A stretch of 64,000 nt of DNA from Streptomyces sp. NBRC 110028 (GTDB lineage Bacteria; Actinomycetota; Actinomycetes; Streptomycetales; Streptomycetaceae). The translations under genes and the position numbers were made by a program. This document shows, piece after piece, positions 28,828 to 41,658 of this stretch; the first letter of the stretch is position 1, and each line of letters starts with the position of its first letter. The stretch spans positions 62,001-126,000 of the forward strand of contig NZ_BBUZ01000029.1 of the NCBI RefSeq assembly GCF_001417735.1, in the 5' to 3' direction. The notes under the pieces were generated by a model, which searched no databases, had not been told where the DNA came from, and saw only the letters and a list, made by a program, of their open reading frames with translations.

Positions 28828-28841
28828 TAAGCGCTTGCTCA
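28828..28841. promoter_or_regulatory. TetR operator, copy 1 (TRAGC-N4-GCTYA)
   Basis: TAAGCGCTTGCTCA lies 22 bases upstream of the TetR start at 28864, between it and the divergent DUF402 gene. A second near-identical copy (11 of 14 identical as an ungapped match, all arm bases conserved) occurs upstream of the MaoC gene at 30027, which the same TetR faces. The form is close to operators of fatty-acid or steroid TetR repressors in actinobacteria. Confidence 0.65.
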
Positions 28842-28863
28842 CCCTCCGTGTAGGGTGTCCGCC

Positions 28864-29502
28864 ATGGACGTGGAGCGCAAGAACGCCGGGGGACGGGCCG
28901 AGGCGTGGGGGGACATTACGCCGGACGCGGCCCGGCGGCTGGTGAGTGCCGCCGTGCACGCCTTCGCCGAGCGGGGCTATCACGCCACCACCACGCGGGA
29001 CATCGCCGGGCGCGCCGGGATGAGCCCGGCCGCCCTCTACATCCACTACAAGACCAAGGAAGAACTGCTCTACCAGATCAGCAAGGTCGGCCACCGGCTC
29101 GCTCTGGACATCCTGGAGGAGGCGCGGGACGGGGGCGGGACGCCCGCCGAGCGGCTGGCCGCCGCGGTGCGGGGGTTCGTGCGGTGGCACGCGGAACACC
29201 ATACGACCGCGCGGGTCGTGCAGTACGAGCTGGGCGCGCTCGGCGAGGAGCACCACGCCGAGGTCATCGCCATGCGCCGGGACACGGACGCGACGGTGCG
29301 CTCGATCATCGAGGACGGGGTGCGGATGGGGGACTTCGACGTGCCGGATGTACGCGGCACCACGGTGGCGGTGCTGTCGCTGTGCATCGACGTCGCCCGC
29401 TGGTTCAACGCGCGCGGGCGCAGCACCCCCGACGAGGTCGGTGACCTCTACGCCGGGCTGGTGCTGCGCATGGTCGGCGCGGAAGACGCTCCCCAGGGGT
29501 AG
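28864..29502 (+). CDS. TetR-family regulator (FadR/KstR2-like)
   Basis: 212 aa. Helix-turn-helix around residues 22-65 (AARRLVSAAVHAFAERGYHA, TTTRDIAGRAGMSPAALYIH) and a ligand domain with WHAEHHTTARVVQYELGAL typical of regulators of lipid CoA metabolism. ATG 28864 has AGGGT about 9 bases upstream; a GTG at 28855 is possible. Convergent with the MaoC gene; it probably represses itself and MaoC through the TRAGC-N4-GCTYA sites. Confidence 0.88.
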   Translation: MDVERKNAGGRAEAWGDITPDAARRLVSAAVHAFAERGYHATTTRDIAGRAGMSPAALYIHYKTKEELLYQISKVGHRLALDILEEARDGGGTPAERLAAAVRGFVRWHAEHHTTARVVQYELGALGEEHHAEVIAMRRDTDATVRSIIEDGVRMGDFDVPDVRGTTVAVLSLCIDVARWFNARGRSTPDEVGDLYAGLVLRMVGAEDAPQG

Positions 29503-29541
29503 AAGACGCTCCCGAGAGGTAGAAGGCGCTCCCTAGAGGTA
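29482..29541. repeat. Three tandem 20-bp repeats across two convergent gene ends
   Basis: Units GAAGACGCTCCCCAGGGGTA (29482), GAAGACGCTCCCGAGAGGTA (29502) and GAAGGCGCTCCCTAGAGGTA (29522) follow each other directly. They contain the TetR stop and the 3' end of the MaoC gene (its stop at 29533-29535 and last codons). Each unit carries a copy of the AGGTAGAAG end of MaoC, so they look like slippage duplications of that gene end. Confidence 0.75.
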
Positions 29542-29994
29542 GAAGCGGGACACCGTCTCCGCCACGCAGGCCGGTTTGGTGCCGCCCTCGCGCTCGACGG
29601 TGACCGTGAGCGTCAGCTGGATCCCGTCCTTCACCTCCGCCACCTCGGCGATGCGGCCCGTGGCGCGCAGCCGGGAGCCGACCGGGACGGGGGAGGGGAA
29701 GCGGACCTTGTTGCTGCCGTAGTTGACGCCCATCCGCACGCCCTCGACGCGCAGCAGCTGCGGGCTGAAGTACGGCAGCAGGGACAGGGTCAGATAGCCG
29801 TGGGCGATGGTCGTGCCGAAGGGGCCGGCGGCGGCCTTCTCGGCGTCGACGTGGATCCACTGGTGGTCGCCGGTCGCCTCGGCGAACTGGTCGATCCGCT
29901 TCTGCTCGATCTCCAGCCAGTCGGTGGGGCCGAGTTCCTCGCCGACCGCGGCGCGCAGTTCGTCGGGCGAGGTGAAGATCCTGGGCTCTGCCAT
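29533..29994 (-). CDS. MaoC-family hot-dog dehydratase
   Basis: 153 aa, single hot-dog domain. The hydratase-2 motif D-x5-H appears in FAEATGDHQWIHVDAEKAAAGPFGTTIAHGYLTLSLLP, with G/DHQWIHVD and the Asp/His catalytic pair. Family members hydrate enoyl-CoA or dehydrate (R)-3-hydroxyacyl-CoA; this short form resembles the Rv0130/HtdZ-type enzyme. ATG 29994 is used; a longer frame runs upstream through the operator at 30027 and is not credible. Confidence 0.9.
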   Translation of the reverse strand: MAEPRIFTSPDELRAAVGEELGPTDWLEIEQKRIDQFAEATGDHQWIHVDAEKAAAGPFGTTIAHGYLTLSLLPYFSPQLLRVEGVRMGVNYGSNKVRFPSPVPVGSRLRATGRIAEVAEVKDGIQLTLTVTVEREGGTKPACVAETVSRFYL

Positions 29995-30026
29995 GTGTGC
30001 TGCCTCCGGGCGACTCGCGATGCGGC

Positions 30027-30040
30027 TAAGCGACTGCTCA
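30027..30040. promoter_or_regulatory. TetR operator, copy 2, upstream of MaoC gene
   Basis: TAAGCGACTGCTCA, 33 bases upstream of the MaoC start, matches copy 1 at 28828 in both arms (TAAGC and GCTCA). The palindrome extends by three more pairs (GCT...AGC). The shared motif ties the convergent regulator and dehydratase into one small regulon. Confidence 0.62.
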
Positions 30041-30109
30041 GCATGCTCGGGTGGCCAGGCTCCTGTCAACGCGCTGTGTGTGGCCTCACAGGCTGGGGGC
30101 GCTGTTCGC

Positions 30110-35007: not shown

Positions 35008-35060
35008 GCCGCGCCCCGATGGTCATCCACCGGTCGGCCGATCGCCCTCTTCCGTTCCAC

Positions 35061-35078
35061 ATACCGACTGGTTAGTCT
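35061..35078. promoter_or_regulatory. TetR operator, site A
   Basis: ATACCGACTGGTTAGTCT, 62 bases upstream of the SDR start. The first 12 bases are identical to site B at 40542-40559 (read on the minus strand, ATACCGACTGGTCGGCAT). Such ACCGACYGGT half-sites are used by TetR repressors of acyl-CoA metabolism. The TetR at 37575 is the third gene of this operon, so autoregulation is likely. Confidence 0.68.
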
Positions 35079-35139
35079 GCCGGTGAGGCCGGGCCGATCC
35101 GGGCCGACGGCCGCGCCGCACCCGAGGAGCGTCTCAATC

Positions 35140-35916
35140 GTGGAAACCGTGCGTGGAGCGCGAGTTGTCGTCACCGGGGCGGGAGGCGGCATCGGCGCCG
35201 CCCTGGCCCGCCGCTTCGCCGCCGAGGGCGCGCGGGTCGTCGTCAACGACCTCGACGCGGCCGGGGCGGAGGCCGTCGCCGCCGAGATCGGCGGCACCGC
35301 GGTCCCCGGTGACGCCTCCGGCGTGGTGCCCGCCGCCCAGGACGCGCTGGGCGGCGCCATCGACATCTTCTGCGCCAACGCGGGCGTCGGCCACGGCGGC
35401 GGCCCCGAGGCCGACGAGGAGCTGTGGGCGCAGTCCTGGGACGTCAACGTGATGGCCCATGTCCGGGCCGCCCGCGCGCTGCTGCCCGACTGGCTGGAGC
35501 GCGGGGAGGGGCGCTTCGTGTCCACCGTGTCCGCGGCCGGGATGCTCACCATGGTCGGCTCGGCGCCGTACAGCGTCTCCAAGCACGCGGCGCTCGCGTT
35601 CGCCGAATGGCTCTCCGTCACCTACCGCCACCGGGGTGTCCAGGTGCACGCCGTGTGCCCGCAGGGCGTGCGCACCAACATGCTGGCGGACACCGGAACC
35701 GCCGGAGACCTGGTGCTCGCGCCCACCGCGATCGAACCGGAGGACGTCGCCGAGGCCGTGCTCAAGGGCATCGCCGAGAACCGGTTCCTGATCCTGCCGC
35801 ACCCGGAGGTGGCCGAGTACTACGCCACCCGCGCCACCGACACCGAGCGGTGGCTGCGGGGCATGAACCGCGTCCAGCGCACTCTGGAAGAGACCGAAGA
35901 GAGGCCGCCCCGATGA
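35140..35916 (+). CDS. Short-chain dehydrogenase/reductase
   Basis: 258 aa. Classical SDR: TGAGGGIG (12-19), NAG (80-82), catalytic Ser near 131 and YSVSK (Y144, K148). GTG 35140 follows GAGGAG. Its stop overlaps the ligase ATG (35913-35916). With an acyl-CoA ligase and TetR in the operon, a role as 3-hydroxyacyl-CoA or keto-acid dehydrogenase in an acyl-acid pathway is likely; compare LvaD in the levulinate pathway. Confidence 0.88.
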   Translation: METVRGARVVVTGAGGGIGAALARRFAAEGARVVVNDLDAAGAEAVAAEIGGTAVPGDASGVVPAAQDALGGAIDIFCANAGVGHGGGPEADEELWAQSWDVNVMAHVRAARALLPDWLERGEGRFVSTVSAAGMLTMVGSAPYSVSKHAALAFAEWLSVTYRHRGVQVHAVCPQGVRTNMLADTGTAGDLVLAPTAIEPEDVAEAVLKGIAENRFLILPHPEVAEYYATRATDTERWLRGMNRVQRTLEETEERPPR

Positions 35917-37556
35917 CGTCGTACCAGGACCAGCCGTGGCTCGCCCAGCTCACCGAGAAGCAGCGCCGGCCGATCACCCCGCGCCCGAGCGTGCTGCACG
36001 CCTTCCGGGAGGCCGTGCGCGACTCCCCTGACCACCCCGCGCTTCGCTACTTCGACGGCCGGGTCACCTACCGGGAGCTGGACGAGCTGTCGGACGGGCT
36101 CGCGGGCCACCTCGCCGGGCGCGGCTTCGCCCCCGGCGACCGGCTCGCGATCATGCTGCAGAACACCCCGCACTTCGTGATCGCGCTGCTCGGCGCGTGG
36201 AAGGCGGGCGCGGCCGTGGTCCCCGTCAACCCCATGTACAAGGGCGCCGAACTCGCCCACATCCTGAACGACGCCGAGGTCACCGCGCTGGTGTGCGCCC
36301 GCACCGGCTGGGAGGCGTACATACGCGCCACGGCCGCGGGCACCCCGGTGCGCATCGCGCTCACCGCCGACGCGTACGACTTCCAGACCCGCGACGACGA
36401 GCGGGTGCTGCGCGACGAGCGCGTCCCCGTGCCCGAGGACACCGACGACCTCCTCGCGGCCGCCCGCGCCGGAGCCCGGCCGCCCGCCGTCCCCGAGCCC
36501 GCGCCCGGCGACATCGCGCTGATCAGCTACACGTCCGGGACCAGCGGCACCCCCAAGGGCGCCATCAACACCCATGTCAATGTCTCCTACAACGCCGACC
36601 GGCAGCACCTCCTCCACGAGCTGCCCCCGGGCTCGGTGATCTTCGCGCTGGCGCCGCTGTTCCACATCACCGGCATGGTCTGCGAACTGGGCGCGAGCCT
36701 CGCCGGGGCCGGGACGCTCGCGCTGGCGTACCGCTTCGAGACCGGCGTCGTCCTGGACGCGTTCGCGGAAGCCCGCCCCGCGTACACCGTGGGCCCCTCC
36801 ACCGCCTTCATGGCGCTGATGGCCCATCCGCGGGCGACCCGTGACCACTTCTCGTCCTTCCGGATCATCTCCTCCGGCGGCGCCCCGCTGCCGCCCGCGC
36901 TGGTCGACCGGTTCGAATCGGCCCTCGGCCCGTATCTGCACAACGGCTACGGGCTCACCGAGTGCACCGCCCCCTGCGCCAGCGTCCCGCCCGGCGTACG
37001 GGCCCCCGTCGACCCGGTCTCCGGCACCCTGGCGGTCGGCGTGCCCGGCGCGGACACCGTCGTACGGATCGCCGGTGACGACGGCAAGGACCTGCCGTTC
37101 GGCGAGCCCGGCGAGATCGTGGTGAGCGGCCCCATGGTCGTCCCCGGCTACTGGCGCCGCCCCGACGCCACCGAGGCCGGCATGCCCGGCGGCGAACTGC
37201 GCACCGGGGACATCGGCTTCATGGACGAGGGCGGCTGGCTGTATGTCGTCGACCGCAAGAAGGACATGATCAACGCCTCCGGGTTCAAGGTGTGGCCGCG
37301 CGAGGTCGAGGACGTGCTCTACACTCACCCCGCCGTCCGCGAGGCGGCCGTCGTCGGCAAGCCGCACCCCTACCGGGGCGAAACGGTCAAGGCGTATGTG
37401 AGCCTGCGGCCGGGGGCCGAGGCCACGCCGGACGAGCTGGCCGCGTACTGCGCGGACCGGCTCGCCGCGTACAAGTACCCGCGGGAGGTCGACATCCTGC
37501 CCGAGCTCCCGAAGACGACCAGTGGCAAGATCCTCCGACGAGAACTGCGAGGATGA
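35913..37556 (+). CDS. AMP-dependent acyl-CoA synthetase/ligase
   Basis: 547 aa. Adenylation P-loop SYTSGTSGTPKGA (206-217), LHNGYGLTECT (A5), GELRTGDIGFMDEGGWLYVVDRKKDMI (A7-A8 hinge) and the C-terminal catalytic Lys in TTSGKILRREL. It activates a carboxylic acid as acyl-AMP and then acyl-CoA. Coupled to the SDR, followed 18 bases later by TetR. Comparable to LvaE or medium-chain ligases; substrate not fixed by sequence. Confidence 0.92.
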   Translation: MTSYQDQPWLAQLTEKQRRPITPRPSVLHAFREAVRDSPDHPALRYFDGRVTYRELDELSDGLAGHLAGRGFAPGDRLAIMLQNTPHFVIALLGAWKAGAAVVPVNPMYKGAELAHILNDAEVTALVCARTGWEAYIRATAAGTPVRIALTADAYDFQTRDDERVLRDERVPVPEDTDDLLAAARAGARPPAVPEPAPGDIALISYTSGTSGTPKGAINTHVNVSYNADRQHLLHELPPGSVIFALAPLFHITGMVCELGASLAGAGTLALAYRFETGVVLDAFAEARPAYTVGPSTAFMALMAHPRATRDHFSSFRIISSGGAPLPPALVDRFESALGPYLHNGYGLTECTAPCASVPPGVRAPVDPVSGTLAVGVPGADTVVRIAGDDGKDLPFGEPGEIVVSGPMVVPGYWRRPDATEAGMPGGELRTGDIGFMDEGGWLYVVDRKKDMINASGFKVWPREVEDVLYTHPAVREAAVVGKPHPYRGETVKAYVSLRPGAEATPDELAAYCADRLAAYKYPREVDILPELPKTTSGKILRRELRG

Positions 37557-37574
37557 GAACGGAAAGAGAAGCGG

Positions 37575-38177
37575 GTGGCGACCATGGCCAGAACGACGAA
37601 CGGTGACGGACAGCCGGTGCCGCGGCGGCTGCTGGCCGCCGCGACCCGCCTCTTCGCGGAGCGCGGGTTCGACCGGACGTCCGTCCAGGAGATCGTCGAG
37701 GCGGCGGGGGTCACCAAGGGAGCCCTGTACCACTACTTCGGCTCCAAGGACGATCTGCTCCATGAGATCTACGGCCGGGTGCTCCGCCTCCAGCAGGAAC
37801 GGCTGGACGCCTTCGCGGACGCGGACGCTCCCGTGGAGCGGCGGCTGCGGGACGCGGCGGCCGACGTCGTGGTGACCACCATCGAGAACCTCGACGACAC
37901 CACGATCTTCTTCCGGTCGATGCACCAGCTGAGCCCGGAGAAGTACAAGCAGGTACGGGCCGAGCGGCGCCGCTACCACGAGCGGTTCCGCGCGCTCGTC
38001 GAGGAGGGCCAGCGGACCGGGGTCTTCACCGCCGACACCCCGGCGGACCTGGTGGTCGACTACCACTTCGGCTCCGTGCACCACCTGGGCACCTGGTACC
38101 GCCCCGGCGGCCCCCTCGGCCCGCAGCAGGTGGCCGACCACCTGGCCGACCTCCTGTTGCGCGCGCTGCGGCCGTAA
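37575..38177 (+). CDS. TetR/AcrR-family regulator of the acyl-acid operon
   Basis: 200 aa. HTH: RRLLAAATRLFAERGFDRTS, VQEIVEAAGVTKGALYHYFG (residues about 17-55), then a ligand domain with FFRSMHQLSPEKYKQVRAERRRYH, common in regulators of acyl-CoA pathways. GTG 37575 has GAGAAG 6 bases before it; ATG 37584 is possible. Predicted to bind site A (35061) and site B (40542), controlling its own operon and the phosphotransferase/acyl-CoA dehydrogenase operon. Confidence 0.88.
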   Translation: MATMARTTNGDGQPVPRRLLAAATRLFAERGFDRTSVQEIVEAAGVTKGALYHYFGSKDDLLHEIYGRVLRLQQERLDAFADADAPVERRLRDAAADVVVTTIENLDDTTIFFRSMHQLSPEKYKQVRAERRRYHERFRALVEEGQRTGVFTADTPADLVVDYHFGSVHHLGTWYRPGGPLGPQQVADHLADLLLRALRP

Positions 38178-38186
38178 AGGAAACGC

Positions 38187-38221
38187 GGCGGAGGGGGCGC
38201 CCACCCCGTGGGCGCCCCCTC
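38187..38221. terminator. Bidirectional terminator between convergent operons
   Basis: CGGAGGGGGCGCCCAC / GTGGGCGCCCCCTCCG, perfect 16-bp stem with a CCC loop, in the 59-base space between the TetR stop (38177) and the convergent acyl-CoA dehydrogenase stop (38237). It should stop transcripts from both sides. Confidence 0.85.
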
Positions 38222-38236
38222 CGCTCGCCGTCGTGG

Positions 38237-39451
38237 CTACAGGTACCGCTTCAACTCCCGCCGCGCCAGCGACCGCTGGTGCACCTCGTCCGGCCCGTCG
38301 GCCAACCGCAGCGTACGGGCCGCCGCCCACAGCTCCGCCAGCGGAAAGTCCTGGCTGACCCCGCCCGCGCCGTGCAACTGCACCGCCTGGTCGAGGATCC
38401 CCACCACCGTCCGCGGTGTGGCGATCTTGATGGCCTGGATCTCGGTGTGCGCCTCCCGGTTGCCCACCGTGTCCATCATCCAGGCCGTCTTGAGGACCAG
38501 CAGCCGCAGCTGCTCGACCGCCACCCGGGCGTCCGCGATCCACTCGTGGACCTGGCCCTGCTGGGCGAGCGCCTTGCCGAACGCCTGCCGGGCCACCGCC
38601 CGGCGGCACATCAGCTCGATCGCCCGCTCGGCCATGCCGATCAGCCGCATGCAGTGGTGGATACGGCCGGGGCCCAGCCGGGCCTGGGCGATGGCGAAGC
38701 CGCCGCCCTCCTCGCCGACGAGGTTCGCGGCCGGGACCCGGGCCCGGTCGAAGACGACCTCGGCGTGGCCGCCGTGGTAGTGGTCCTCGTAGCCGTACAC
38801 CGTCATCGCCCGCCGCACCTCGACCCCGGGCGTATCGCGCGGCACCAGCACCATCGACTGCTGGCGGCGCACGTCCGCGCCCTCCGGGTCGGTCTTGCCC
38901 ATCACGATGAAGATCTTGCAGTCGGGGTTCATCGCCCCGGAGATGTACCACTTGCGCCCGGTGATGACGTAATCGTCGCCGTCCCGCTCGATCCGGGTCT
39001 CGATGTTGGTGGCGTCGGACGAGGCCACCTCCGGCTCGGTCATCGCGAAGGCCGACCGGATCTCGCCCGCGAGCAGCGGCTCCAGCCACTGCTCGCGCTG
39101 CTGCTCAGTTCCGAACTGGGCGAGCACCTCCATGTTGCCGGTGTCCGGCGCGGCACAGTTGAGGGCGGTGGGGGCGAGCTGGGGGCTGCGGCCGGTGATC
39201 TCGGCGAGCGGGGCGTACTGGAGGTTGGTCAGCCCCGCCCCGTACTCGGCGTCCGGCAGGAACAGGTTCCACAGCCCCTGCTTGCGGGCCTCGGCCTTCA
39301 GCTCCGCCACGACGGCCGGGGTCTCCCAGGGCGAGCCGAGCTTGGCGCGCTGCTCGCCCACGACCGCCTCGGCCGGGTAGACGTGCTCGTCCATGAAGGT
39401 CAGGAGCTTGGCGCGGAGTTCTTCGGTGCGGGCGTCGAATGCGAAGTCCAT
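38237..39451 (-). CDS. Acyl-CoA dehydrogenase (ACAD10/11-like)
   Basis: 404 aa. N-terminal helical part, FAD/substrate motifs FAMTEPEVASSDATNIET and GRKWYISGA (beta barrel), and C-terminal QLHGAGGVSQDFPLAELWAAARTLRLADGPDEVHQRSLARREL, the ACAD10/ACAD11 hallmark end. It starts 8 bases after the phosphotransferase stop, in the same operon. Human ACAD10 and ACAD11 are fusions of a phosphotransferase and this dehydrogenase and act on 4-hydroxy acids; here the two domains are separate adjacent genes. Confidence 0.92.
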   Translation of the reverse strand: MDFAFDARTEELRAKLLTFMDEHVYPAEAVVGEQRAKLGSPWETPAVVAELKAEARKQGLWNLFLPDAEYGAGLTNLQYAPLAEITGRSPQLAPTALNCAAPDTGNMEVLAQFGTEQQREQWLEPLLAGEIRSAFAMTEPEVASSDATNIETRIERDGDDYVITGRKWYISGAMNPDCKIFIVMGKTDPEGADVRRQQSMVLVPRDTPGVEVRRAMTVYGYEDHYHGGHAEVVFDRARVPAANLVGEEGGGFAIAQARLGPGRIHHCMRLIGMAERAIELMCRRAVARQAFGKALAQQGQVHEWIADARVAVEQLRLLVLKTAWMMDTVGNREAHTEIQAIKIATPRTVVGILDQAVQLHGAGGVSQDFPLAELWAAARTLRLADGPDEVHQRSLARRELKRYL

Positions 39452-39459
39452 GGGGTGTC

Positions 39460-40482
39460 TCAGTTCTCCTGGAGGGTGGTGAGGCCGTTGTCGATGAAGG
39501 CCGGGACGATCGCGCCGATGCGGTCGAAGCCCGTGCCCAGGGTCTGTCCGAGGGTGAAGCGGTAGTGGATGCCCTCCAAGATCACCGCGAGCTTGAAGTA
39601 GGCGAAGGCGGTGTACCAGGCGATGCCGCCGACGTCCCGGCCCGAGCCCTCGGCGTACCGCTGGATCAGCTCGTCCGTCGCCGGGTGGCCGGGGGCGCCC
39701 TGGGTGGAGGAGATGGGTGCGTCGTCCAGGGTGGGGTGCTCGCTGTACATCACGATCAGTCCGAGGTCGGTCAGCGGATCGCCGAGCGTGGACATCTCCC
39801 AGTCGAGGATCGCCTTGATCCGGTCGTCGGCACCCACCAGGACGTTGTCCAGGCGGTAGTCGCCGTGCACCACGGTGGGCGCGGGGGAGGCGGGCAGTGT
39901 CTTGGCGAGCCGGGTGTGCAGCTCGTCGATGCCGGGCAGCTCACGGCTGCGCGAGGCCTCCAGCTGCTTGCCCCAGCGCCGCAGCTGCCGCTCCAGGAAG
40001 CCCTCCGGCCGCCCGAAGTCACCGAGCCCGACCTCGGCGGGATCGACGGAGTGCAGCGCGACGAGGGTGTCCACCAGGGACAGCACCACCCCCCGGGTGC
40101 GCTCCGGACCGATCGCGGCCAGCTGCTCGGCCGTACGGTACGGAAGTCCCTCCACGAACTCCATGACGTAGAACGGCGCCCCGGCCACCGCCTCGTCCTC
40201 GCACAGCAGCACCGGCTCCGGCACCGGCACGCTGGTCGGGTACAGCGCGCTGATGACCCGGTGTTCGCGCCGCATGTCATGGGCGGTGGCCAGCACATGC
40301 CCCAGCGGCGGCCGGCGGACCACCCAGCGGGAGGCGCCGTCGGTGACGGCGTACGTGAGATTCGACCGGCCGCCCTCGATCAGCTCCGCGCTCAGCGGAC
40401 CGCCCACCAGCCCCGGCCGCTCGTGGTCGAGATGGGCGCGGAGCCGCGTCAGATCGAGTCCCGGCGGATTGCCTGCGTTCAT
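39460..40482 (-). CDS. Phosphotransferase (APH-like kinase), 4-hydroxyacyl-CoA kinase candidate
   Basis: 340 aa. APH fold with VVRRPPLGHVLATAHDMRRE, catalytic loop VVHGDYRLDNVLV (HGD 206-208, N213) and ILDWE (metal Asp D227). This is not an antibiotic-resistance signature but that of LvaA/ACAD10-N-terminal kinases. ATG 40482 follows a GGAAGAAGAG ribosome site. First gene of the operon with the acyl-CoA dehydrogenase; site B for TetR lies 60 bases upstream. Confidence 0.88.
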   Translation of the reverse strand: MNAGNPPGLDLTRLRAHLDHERPGLVGGPLSAELIEGGRSNLTYAVTDGASRWVVRRPPLGHVLATAHDMRREHRVISALYPTSVPVPEPVLLCEDEAVAGAPFYVMEFVEGLPYRTAEQLAAIGPERTRGVVLSLVDTLVALHSVDPAEVGLGDFGRPEGFLERQLRRWGKQLEASRSRELPGIDELHTRLAKTLPASPAPTVVHGDYRLDNVLVGADDRIKAILDWEMSTLGDPLTDLGLIVMYSEHPTLDDAPISSTQGAPGHPATDELIQRYAEGSGRDVGGIAWYTAFAYFKLAVILEGIHYRFTLGQTLGTGFDRIGAIVPAFIDNGLTTLQEN

Positions 40483-40541
40483 CGAATCTCTTCTTCCCTG
40501 GGAGGCGGGCGGCGTAGGGTTCACTCCATGTCCACCTCATG

Positions 40542-40559
40542 ATGCCGACCAGTCGGTAT
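40542..40559. promoter_or_regulatory. TetR operator, site B
   Basis: Plus strand ATGCCGACCAGTCGGTAT; inner palindrome CCGAC-CA-GTCGG. On the minus strand it reads ATACCGACTGGTCGGCAT and shares its first 12 bases with site A. It lies between the divergent phosphotransferase (40482) and oxidoreductase (40732) genes and may control both. The rest of 40483-40731 shows no gene. Confidence 0.7.
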
Positions 40560-40731
40560 GTAGTCCAGTGCGCGGCCGTCACCGGTTCCTCGCGCTGCCG
40601 AGGTGCGGGGAGGGCGAGGGCGCGTTCCGGCCCGAACCCGCGCGGGCTGGACTTGCGGTGCCGGTTCCCGAGCAGGAGCGTCGGTAGGGGGAAGCGCCCG
40701 GCGACACCAGGAACCGCGAGGAGCAGCCACC

Positions 40732-41658
40732 ATGAAGGCCATCAGCTACCGCCGCTACGGCGGTCCCGAGGTTCTCGAATTCGGCGAGGTCCGGGACCCC
40801 AAGGTCGGGCCCGACTCGGTGCTGATCCGGGTCAGGGCCGCCGCCGTGAACCCCGTCGACTGGAAGGCGCAGGCCGGATATCTCGACCCCGTCCTGGACG
40901 CCGTCTTCCCGGTCATCCCGGGCTGGGACGTCGCCGGAGTGGTGGAACGGACCGGACCGGCGGTGACCGGGTTCCGGGCCGGGGACGAGGTGATCGGGTA
41001 CGTGCGCGAGGACTTCCTGTCCCGCGGCACCTGCGCCGAGTACGTGGCCGCGCCCCTGCGCACGATCGCCCGCAAACCGCGGAACCTCACCTTCGAGCAG
41101 GCCGCGGGCATTCCACTGGCCGGGCTGACGGCCTACCAGTCGCTGGTCGGCGCGCTGCGGGTCGGCGAGGGCGACACGGTGCTGGTGCACGCGGCCGCCG
41201 GGGGCGTCGGCTCGATGGCGGTGCAGCTGGCCCGGCATCTGGGCGCCCGCGTCATCGGGACCGCCGGTGAGCACAACCACGACTATCTGCGGACGCTGGG
41301 CGCCGAGCCGACCGTGTACGGGGAGGGGCTCGCCGAGCGGGTGCGGGAACTCGCCCCCGACGGGGTGCAGGCCGCGTTCGACCTGGTCGGCGGCGACGCC
41401 CTCACCGCCTCCGCTCAGGTGCTGGCCCCCGGCGGCCGGCTGGCGTCCATCGCCGATCCGGCGGTCCTCGGCGCCGGCGGCGCTTATGTCTTCGTCCACC
41501 CCGACCCCGAGGACCTCCAGGACCTGACCGACCTCGCCGAGCGCGGCGCGCTGGGGGTCGAGGTGTCGGCGACGTACCCGCTGGAGCGGACGGCGGAGGC
41601 GCAGGCGCGCAGCGCGGAGGGCCACACCCGCGGCAAGATCGTCATCACGGTCGATTAG
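40732..41658 (+). CDS. NADP-dependent quinone-type oxidoreductase (zinc-free MDR)
   Basis: 308 aa. MKAISYRRYGGPEVLEFGEV is the standard start of quinone reductase-like MDRs; VHAAAGGVGSMAVQLARHLGARV is the nucleotide-binding region; no zinc-ligand Cys are present. It probably reduces enoyl-type or quinone electrophiles using NADPH. GAGGAGC precedes ATG 40732. It is divergent from the phosphotransferase across the TetR site, so it may belong to the same regulon. Stop overlaps the convergent DUF202 gene by 4 bases. Confidence 0.88.
   Translation: MKAISYRRYGGPEVLEFGEVRDPKVGPDSVLIRVRAAAVNPVDWKAQAGYLDPVLDAVFPVIPGWDVAGVVERTGPAVTGFRAGDEVIGYVREDFLSRGTCAEYVAAPLRTIARKPRNLTFEQAAGIPLAGLTAYQSLVGALRVGEGDTVLVHAAAGGVGSMAVQLARHLGARVIGTAGEHNHDYLRTLGAEPTVYGEGLAERVRELAPDGVQAAFDLVGGDALTASAQVLAPGGRLASIADPAVLGAGGAYVFVHPDPEDLQDLTDLAERGALGVEVSATYPLERTAEAQARSAEGHTRGKIVITVD

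Follow-up and report, generated by a model that had tools for sequence, protein, structure and literature searches.

Two neighboring operons in a 64-kb stretch of the 8.9-Mb genome of Streptomyces sp. NBRC 110028 (G000:C29:62001-126000, hereafter the window) share a predicted operator. One operon encodes a short-chain dehydrogenase/reductase (SDR), an acyl-coenzyme A (CoA) ligase and a TetR regulator, and the other encodes an APH-fold kinase and an acyl-CoA dehydrogenase (ACAD). We consider it probable that the regulator is an acyl-CoA-sensing, PfmR-like repressor that governs a kinase-dependent route leading 4-hydroxyacyl-CoAs into beta-oxidation. This reading is based on the conservation of the sites, the linkage of the genes and the identity of families and key residues.

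The 12-bp sequence ATACCGACTGGT is found with zero mismatches at 35061-35072 on the forward strand and at 40548-40559 on the reverse strand and nowhere else in the window; a first-order Markov model predicts about 0.0015 chance occurrences of the exact sequence in 64 kb. This confirms the two sites with 12 identical bases claimed in a preliminary description of this DNA. The shared bases sit within 18-bp imperfect palindromes (Table 1). TAGTCT at the right end of operator A is a plausible -10 element, and putative -35 elements can be assigned at both promoters; an operator occupying the spacer and touching the -10 would fit a repressor. When the 18-mer was relaxed to zero or one mismatch, four places were identified in the genome (A, B, G000:C30:141627 and L004), and with up to three mismatches 102 matches were obtained versus 125 for a backwards control. 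Because the latter matches are not enriched over the control, only near-exact sites carry meaning, and the case therefore rests on these sites and their conservation. The relaxed matches L004 and L009 were set aside, as the adjoining open reading frames appear unrelated by eye.

Table 1. Coordinates of the two operons and of their promoter elements in the window.
Feature	Position	Strand	Remarks
Putative -35 of promoter A, TTCCGT	35050..35055	+	17 bp ahead of TAGTCT; CCCTTCC-like block kept in 32 distinct A promoters
Operator A (predicted)	35061..35078	+	ATACCGACTGGTTAGTCT; precedes SDR-ligase-TetR operon
Short-chain dehydrogenase/reductase	35140..35916	+	Pfam adh_short; 48% identical SDR in Deinococcus ACAD-SDR-kinase row
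Acyl-CoA ligase (AMP-binding)	35913..37556	+	At least 60% identity in 52/80 loci, some loci cut by contig ends
TetR repressor, PfmR-like (predicted)	37575..38177	+	TetR_C_24 domain; 35% identity over 184 aa to PfmR/TTHB023
ACAD10/11-like (LvaC-like) acyl-CoA dehydrogenase	38237..39451	-	Matches mouse ACAD11 at E 9e-140; retains HCMR motif and catalytic Asp
ACAD10/11-type (LvaA-like) APH-fold kinase	39460..40482	-	R176, D220, N225 equivalents kept; candidate 4-hydroxyacyl-CoA kinase
Operator B (predicted)	40542..40559	-	ATACCGACTGGTCGGCAT; precedes kinase-ACAD operon
Putative -35 of promoter B, TGGACT	40562..40567	-	17 bp ahead of CATCAT (40544-40539); CTGGAC block kept in 31 distinct B promoters

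The exact pattern RTACCGACYRGTYRGYMT is present in 39 of 41 genomes of the genus, and its backwards version in one; orthologs of the TetR and the ACAD were identified in 40 and 39 of these genomes, respectively. Streptomyces also supplies the first named TetR relatives among the matches listed (S. samsunensis at 91% and S. sparsogenes at 93%, for example). The best 80 of 479 relatives by TetR similarity were taken as named TetR loci (1.25 Mb in total), and a site was scored if the exact pattern lay within 400 bp ahead of the gene and in the correct direction. Among scorable cases, such a site was found for 72 of 76 SDR genes and for 62 of 71 kinase genes, and the 1.25 Mb contain one further site and no match to the backwards pattern; these counts are not independent, since the loci were picked by TetR similarity and are related by descent. 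The proposal that one operator ties the SDR, ligase and TetR genes to the kinase and ACAD genes is supported. Summed over the genus genomes, 77 exact places were found, seven of which lie away from the SDR/kinase cluster (compared by eye); two of these seven precede a paired-ACAD operon (in this genome and in G089), and two further places (G075:C222 and G067:C540) are on separate contigs. The -35-like block is the sole other clearly conserved part of the promoters compared (32 of type A and 31 of type B, all distinct), in which conservation of the operator is by construction because the promoters were picked by the site itself. Coincidence as the source of the shared 12-mer has a negligible probability in our view. 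One might appeal to it because the window should by chance contain about two matches with up to two mismatches and the 18-mer at three mismatches is not enriched in the genome. However, footprinting shows that other genomes have exact sites ahead of these genes too, and the chance expectation is the very small one given above.

Several exact sites occur in less usual settings. The cluster of G071 is split far apart (L112, L113), apparently by a break within the ligase gene, and the operator is kept on each half. An operator in G081 lies ahead of an MFS transporter gene (L101:4193) that was found in one of the 41 genus genomes, namely its source genome, and an MFS gene that looks similar by eye adjoins the TetR gene in G007 (L119:12718). 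Two sites in G082 (L102:4853 and 5001) fall in the interval separating a sodium:solute symporter gene from an oxidoreductase gene; the lva operon also contains an ActP-type symporter. Extra exact sites in a similar setting are present in three genomes (L104:5236, L105:5088, L107:5087), about 35 bp ahead of a luciferase-like oxidoreductase gene in L105 and L107. The MFS, symporter and luciferase-like oxidoreductase genes are at most candidate members of the regulon.

The window TetR is related to PfmR (TTHB023; structure entry 3vpr, matched by sequence) of Thermus thermophilus HB8 over residues 18-198, which is most of its length. Seven other TetR relatives were matched in its own genome; the next by E-value (4.7e-19) is 31% identical over 178 residues, and the paralog at G000:C27:225658 is 47% identical over 60 residues of the DNA-binding part. 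An alternative is that the operators are real and read by another regulator, either one of these paralogs or a gamma-butyrolactone receptor. The ArpA-type consensus is similar to the window sites, and the ScbR-type model is the best NCBIfam match of the window TetR, at 66 bits under a cut-off of 150. We judge this alternative very unlikely, because the sites travel with the window TetR across families and often lie beside its gene, the next relative by E-value is the distant one described above, the score falls short of the cut-off of the receptor family, and the related PfmR binds a like palindrome, as described in parts of PMC7022988.

Family searches agreed with the gene families named in the preliminary description (SDR, ligase, TetR, kinase and dehydrogenase). 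Among solved structures, the ACAD matches mouse ACAD11 (E 9e-140) and the putative ACAD 4hr3 (1e-132), and the best ordinary ACAD is at about 1e-38; identity to mammalian ACAD11 is 56.6% over 198 ACAD residues compared. In the alignment, in which the chain index plus one matches the numbering of PMC12440821, the protein retains RLGPGRIHHCMR and RLADGPDEVH as in ACAD11, together with equivalents of R626, HCMR and D753. Parts of PMC12440821 describe the HCMR motif of ACAD11 as essential, R626, H634 and R637 as contacting the phosphate in simulations, and D753 as catalytic. The kinase matches 9o56 (6e-73), 3dxp (1e-53) and the ACAD11 kinase domain (2.5e-51), with macrolide kinases at about 3e-4, and retains the DWE motif and the equivalents of D220, N225 and R176 of the ACAD11 kinase domain; no certain counterpart of R86 could be placed in this alignment. 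Burkholderia orthologs of both domains substitute for the ACAD10 domains in vitro, according to parts of PMC11342911. These E-values, set against those of ordinary families, and the key residues kept uphold the earlier assignment of both proteins as ACAD10/11-like. The window SDR could act as a 4-oxo/4-hydroxyacyl-CoA reductase or as a hydroxyacyl-CoA dehydrogenase. A quinone-type oxidoreductase encoded at 40732, which had been suggested as perhaps controlled by the second site, is probably not a regulon member. At 60% identity or more it was found in 35 of the 80 loci, some of which end at contig boundaries, lying 158 to 3437 bp from the kinase in the 34 loci that have both.

A third site in the same genome (G000:C30:141627, GTACCGACTGGTTAGTAT) lies ahead of an operon for a zinc-type oxidoreductase and two ACADs, FadEa and FadEb (L021:5718-9063); this operon and the PfmR precedent are additions beyond the preliminary description. 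Both FadEa and FadEb are without the HCMR-type phosphate-binding and catalytic residues of ACAD11 in the alignment. At the position that aligns with the catalytic D753, FadEa has an EGG motif and FadEb no acid, which suggests an active/inactive pair. Genes resembling those of ergothioneine biosynthesis (EgtA-D, by eye; L021:1070-5558) are divergent from this operon. The solved structures most like FadEa are Tcur3483 and 4x28, alpha2-beta2 steroid-type ACADs, and this similarity favors the possibility that the same regulon serves another chemistry, in which the TetR controls general fatty-acid or phenylacetate-like beta-oxidation and the kinase and ACAD act on another hydroxylated CoA ester, such as a terpenoid or steroid side chain. 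The operator ACCGACCGGTCGGT of PaaR, used for phenylacetate genes according to parts of PMC2770484, points the same way. We nevertheless regard this explanation as rather unlikely, given that the window ACAD resembles ACAD11 far more than it does ordinary ACADs and has kept the phosphate-specific residues, and that the kinase matches the ACAD11 kinase domain along its length.

Among 246 genomes of the class, TetR orthologs at E 1e-38 or better were found in 49, 21 of which belong to Streptomyces, and in 16 of 103 genera. All matches outside the genus gave 31 TetR loci (L164-L194), with ACAD and/or kinase genes in 19 and the oxidoreductase gene alone in four. A site with at most two mismatches is present in all 19 of the former and all four of the latter, and in one of the other eight. 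Several of these loci contain SDR-kinase-ACAD or kinase-ACAD-FadEa-FadEb rows, one stretch (L177) additionally having a thiolase and a FabG-type SDR, and in G002 and G007, which represent two other families of the order, the TetR, FadEa-FadEb, kinase and ACAD genes form a single cluster with sites. A Deinococcus plasmid encodes in a row an ACAD (59.5%), an SDR (48%) and a kinase (41%), with identities to the window proteins, which links the window SDR to the kinase/ACAD pair across phyla. A row on a Bacillota plasmid comprises an ACAD (58%), a TetR (31%), a thioesterase and a kinase (35%).

We propose that the TetR binds the ATACCGACYRGTYRGYMT palindrome in the spacer and -10 region of promoter A, which would make its own operon autoregulated, and of promoter B, as well as the site of the third operon, and that an acyl-CoA made by the pathway would release it. 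The acid would be activated to its CoA ester by the window ligase or another one, and for a 4-oxo acid substrate the SDR would convert the 4-position to a hydroxyl. The APH-fold kinase may then phosphorylate the 4-hydroxyacyl-CoA, from which the ACAD11-like enzyme would eliminate phosphate to give a 2-enoyl-CoA for beta-oxidation; the ACAD pair, plus a thiolase clustered with these genes in one relative, might assist in the latter. The binding, the ligand, the reactions and the substrate are what we infer. As for the substrate, the earlier designation as a levulinate-like catabolic regulon stands with respect to the kinase, ACAD, SDR and ligase families, and levulinate itself is only one option. 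LvaB of the lva operon is, we assume, a DUF6285-type protein, and no DUF6285 protein match was found in this genome; the ligase was found in 52 of 80 loci, and the regulator is a TetR and not of the sigma-54 LvaR type. Levulinate is therefore one candidate among 4-hydroxy acids and gamma-lactones.

Several observations weigh against the proposed regulon. In 27 of 30 Streptomyces orthologs of the oxidoreductase-ACAD-ACAD operon, a different palindrome, CAAGCGACCGCTTAGTAT, occupies the same promoter position, about 58-162 bp ahead of the oxidoreductase gene (L121-L150), where this genome has GTACCGACTGGTTAGTAT; G067 carries a variant of this palindrome and G094 a hybrid. Of the 41 genomes, 32 have a single match to the pattern for this second palindrome, and the genome studied here has none. 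Replacement of the operator before this operon in most Streptomyces would be the simplest reading, because TetR-type sites remain beside FadEa-FadEb in G002, G007 and further outgroup loci. The window also contains a second TetR_C_24 regulator gene (28855-29502) and a gene for a MaoC-like hydratase (29533-30069, reverse strand), each with a CTAAGCG-nn-TGCTCA palindrome upstream (28829-30047); the pattern CTAAGCGNNYGCTYR has five sites in the genome versus two for the backwards control. This regulator could be that of the replacement operator, which its palindrome resembles.

Further observations also count against the proposed regulon. The exact pattern is absent before four of 76 SDR genes and nine of 71 kinase genes, that is, from 13 of 147 scored promoters, and G093 encodes the TetR but shows neither sites nor a kinase or ACAD gene in its vicinity. 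Eight of the 31 loci outside the genus contain none of the kinase, ACAD and oxidoreductase genes, and five TetR relatives at 42-44% (L067-L071) come with a ligase and with neither kinase nor ACAD in the stretch; three of them have weak 3-mismatch sites. The acyl-CoA ligand is suggested by the TetR_C_24 class of the regulator, and the solved structure that matches the kinase best, 9o56, bears the name aminoglycoside phosphotransferase, which is a label only. A second ACAD11-like gene in this genome (59%; G000:C30:250317-251513, L196:8318-9514) adjoins a diverged kinase, and thus the window pair may not be the sole such activity; another ACAD, a thiolase and a TetR gene were seen near it by eye. 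TTHB015 and TTHB014 of Thermus are 39% and 27% identical to the window ACAD and kinase, and the operon genes other than these two change less, and not significantly, upon pfmR deletion, as given in parts of PMC7022988. Finally, the motif does not name the pathway, because PaaR uses like operators for phenylacetate genes.

If the proposed regulon is correct, the ACAD10/11-type kinase/dehydrogenase chemistry, lately explained in mammals and known in bacteria from growth on levulinate, is now tied to a defined repressor and operator, which occur in 39 of the 41 Streptomyces genomes studied as well as in other families of actinobacteria. The regulon could provide an inducible promoter or biosensor for 4-hydroxyacyl-CoAs, and it raises the question of which 4-hydroxy acids or lactones streptomycetes encounter so frequently. 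A much bolder idea, which we regard as a long shot, is that PfmR-type repressors in Actinomycetota, Deinococcota and Bacillota share an ancestral control of the phosphorylation-dependent breakdown of 4-hydroxyacyl-CoAs from gamma-lactones, and that the regulon, nearly universal in Streptomyces, would there also dispose of the organisms' own gamma-butyrolactone signals, which are 4-hydroxy acids once ring-opened. No description of the proposed regulon in Actinobacteria was found among the titles and abstract openings examined in the openly licensed literature.

Similar to the window TetR, PaaR of Burkholderia cenocepacia is a TetR protein with an operator between -35 and -10, but it governs phenylacetate degradation genes (parts of PMC2770484). 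The lva operon of Pseudomonas putida encodes the same families, namely the kinase LvaA, ACAD LvaC, SDR LvaD and CoA ligase LvaE, whereas it differs in its sigma-54 regulator LvaR, the small LvaB, organic acid transport by LvaF/LvaG and the levulinate substrate shown for it (parts of PMC6692424). For the SDR, this comparison is by family and by its linkage to kinase/ACAD genes across phyla. Mammalian ACAD10 and ACAD11 combine a kinase and an ACAD domain whose key residues are those of the window proteins (parts of PMC12440821 and PMC11342911), although the two are fused in one protein in animals, with no repressor or operator, and encoded by adjacent separate genes here. The closest parallel to the regulon as a whole is that of PfmR, whose palindrome is of the same type and whose operon TTHB023-TTHB014 includes a kinase (phosphotransferase), ACADs, two SDRs, an acyl-CoA ligase and a MaoC gene (parts of PMC7022988). 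In the Thermus sequence, a CACCGACCGGTCGGTA palindrome lies directly before TTHB023. The PfmR regulon differs in being a single long operon with the TetR gene first, with MaoC and thioesterase genes inside and a DUF6285 gene adjoining the kinase. The operon is assigned, in PMC7022988, to phenylacetic and fatty acid metabolism and not to 4-hydroxy acids, and deletion of pfmR raises TTHB014 and TTHB015 there, with log2 changes of 1.86 and 1.68 and adjusted p of about 0.02. TTHB015 retains THCMR and an Asp in the alignment. The PfmR-type features are present in the window as well, with a TetR related over most of its length and a ACCGACYGGTCGGT-type operator both at its own promoter and at the kinase/ACAD genes. 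The proposed regulon suggests that its Thermus counterpart, although it takes its name from phenylacetate, shares this 4-hydroxy-acid theme.

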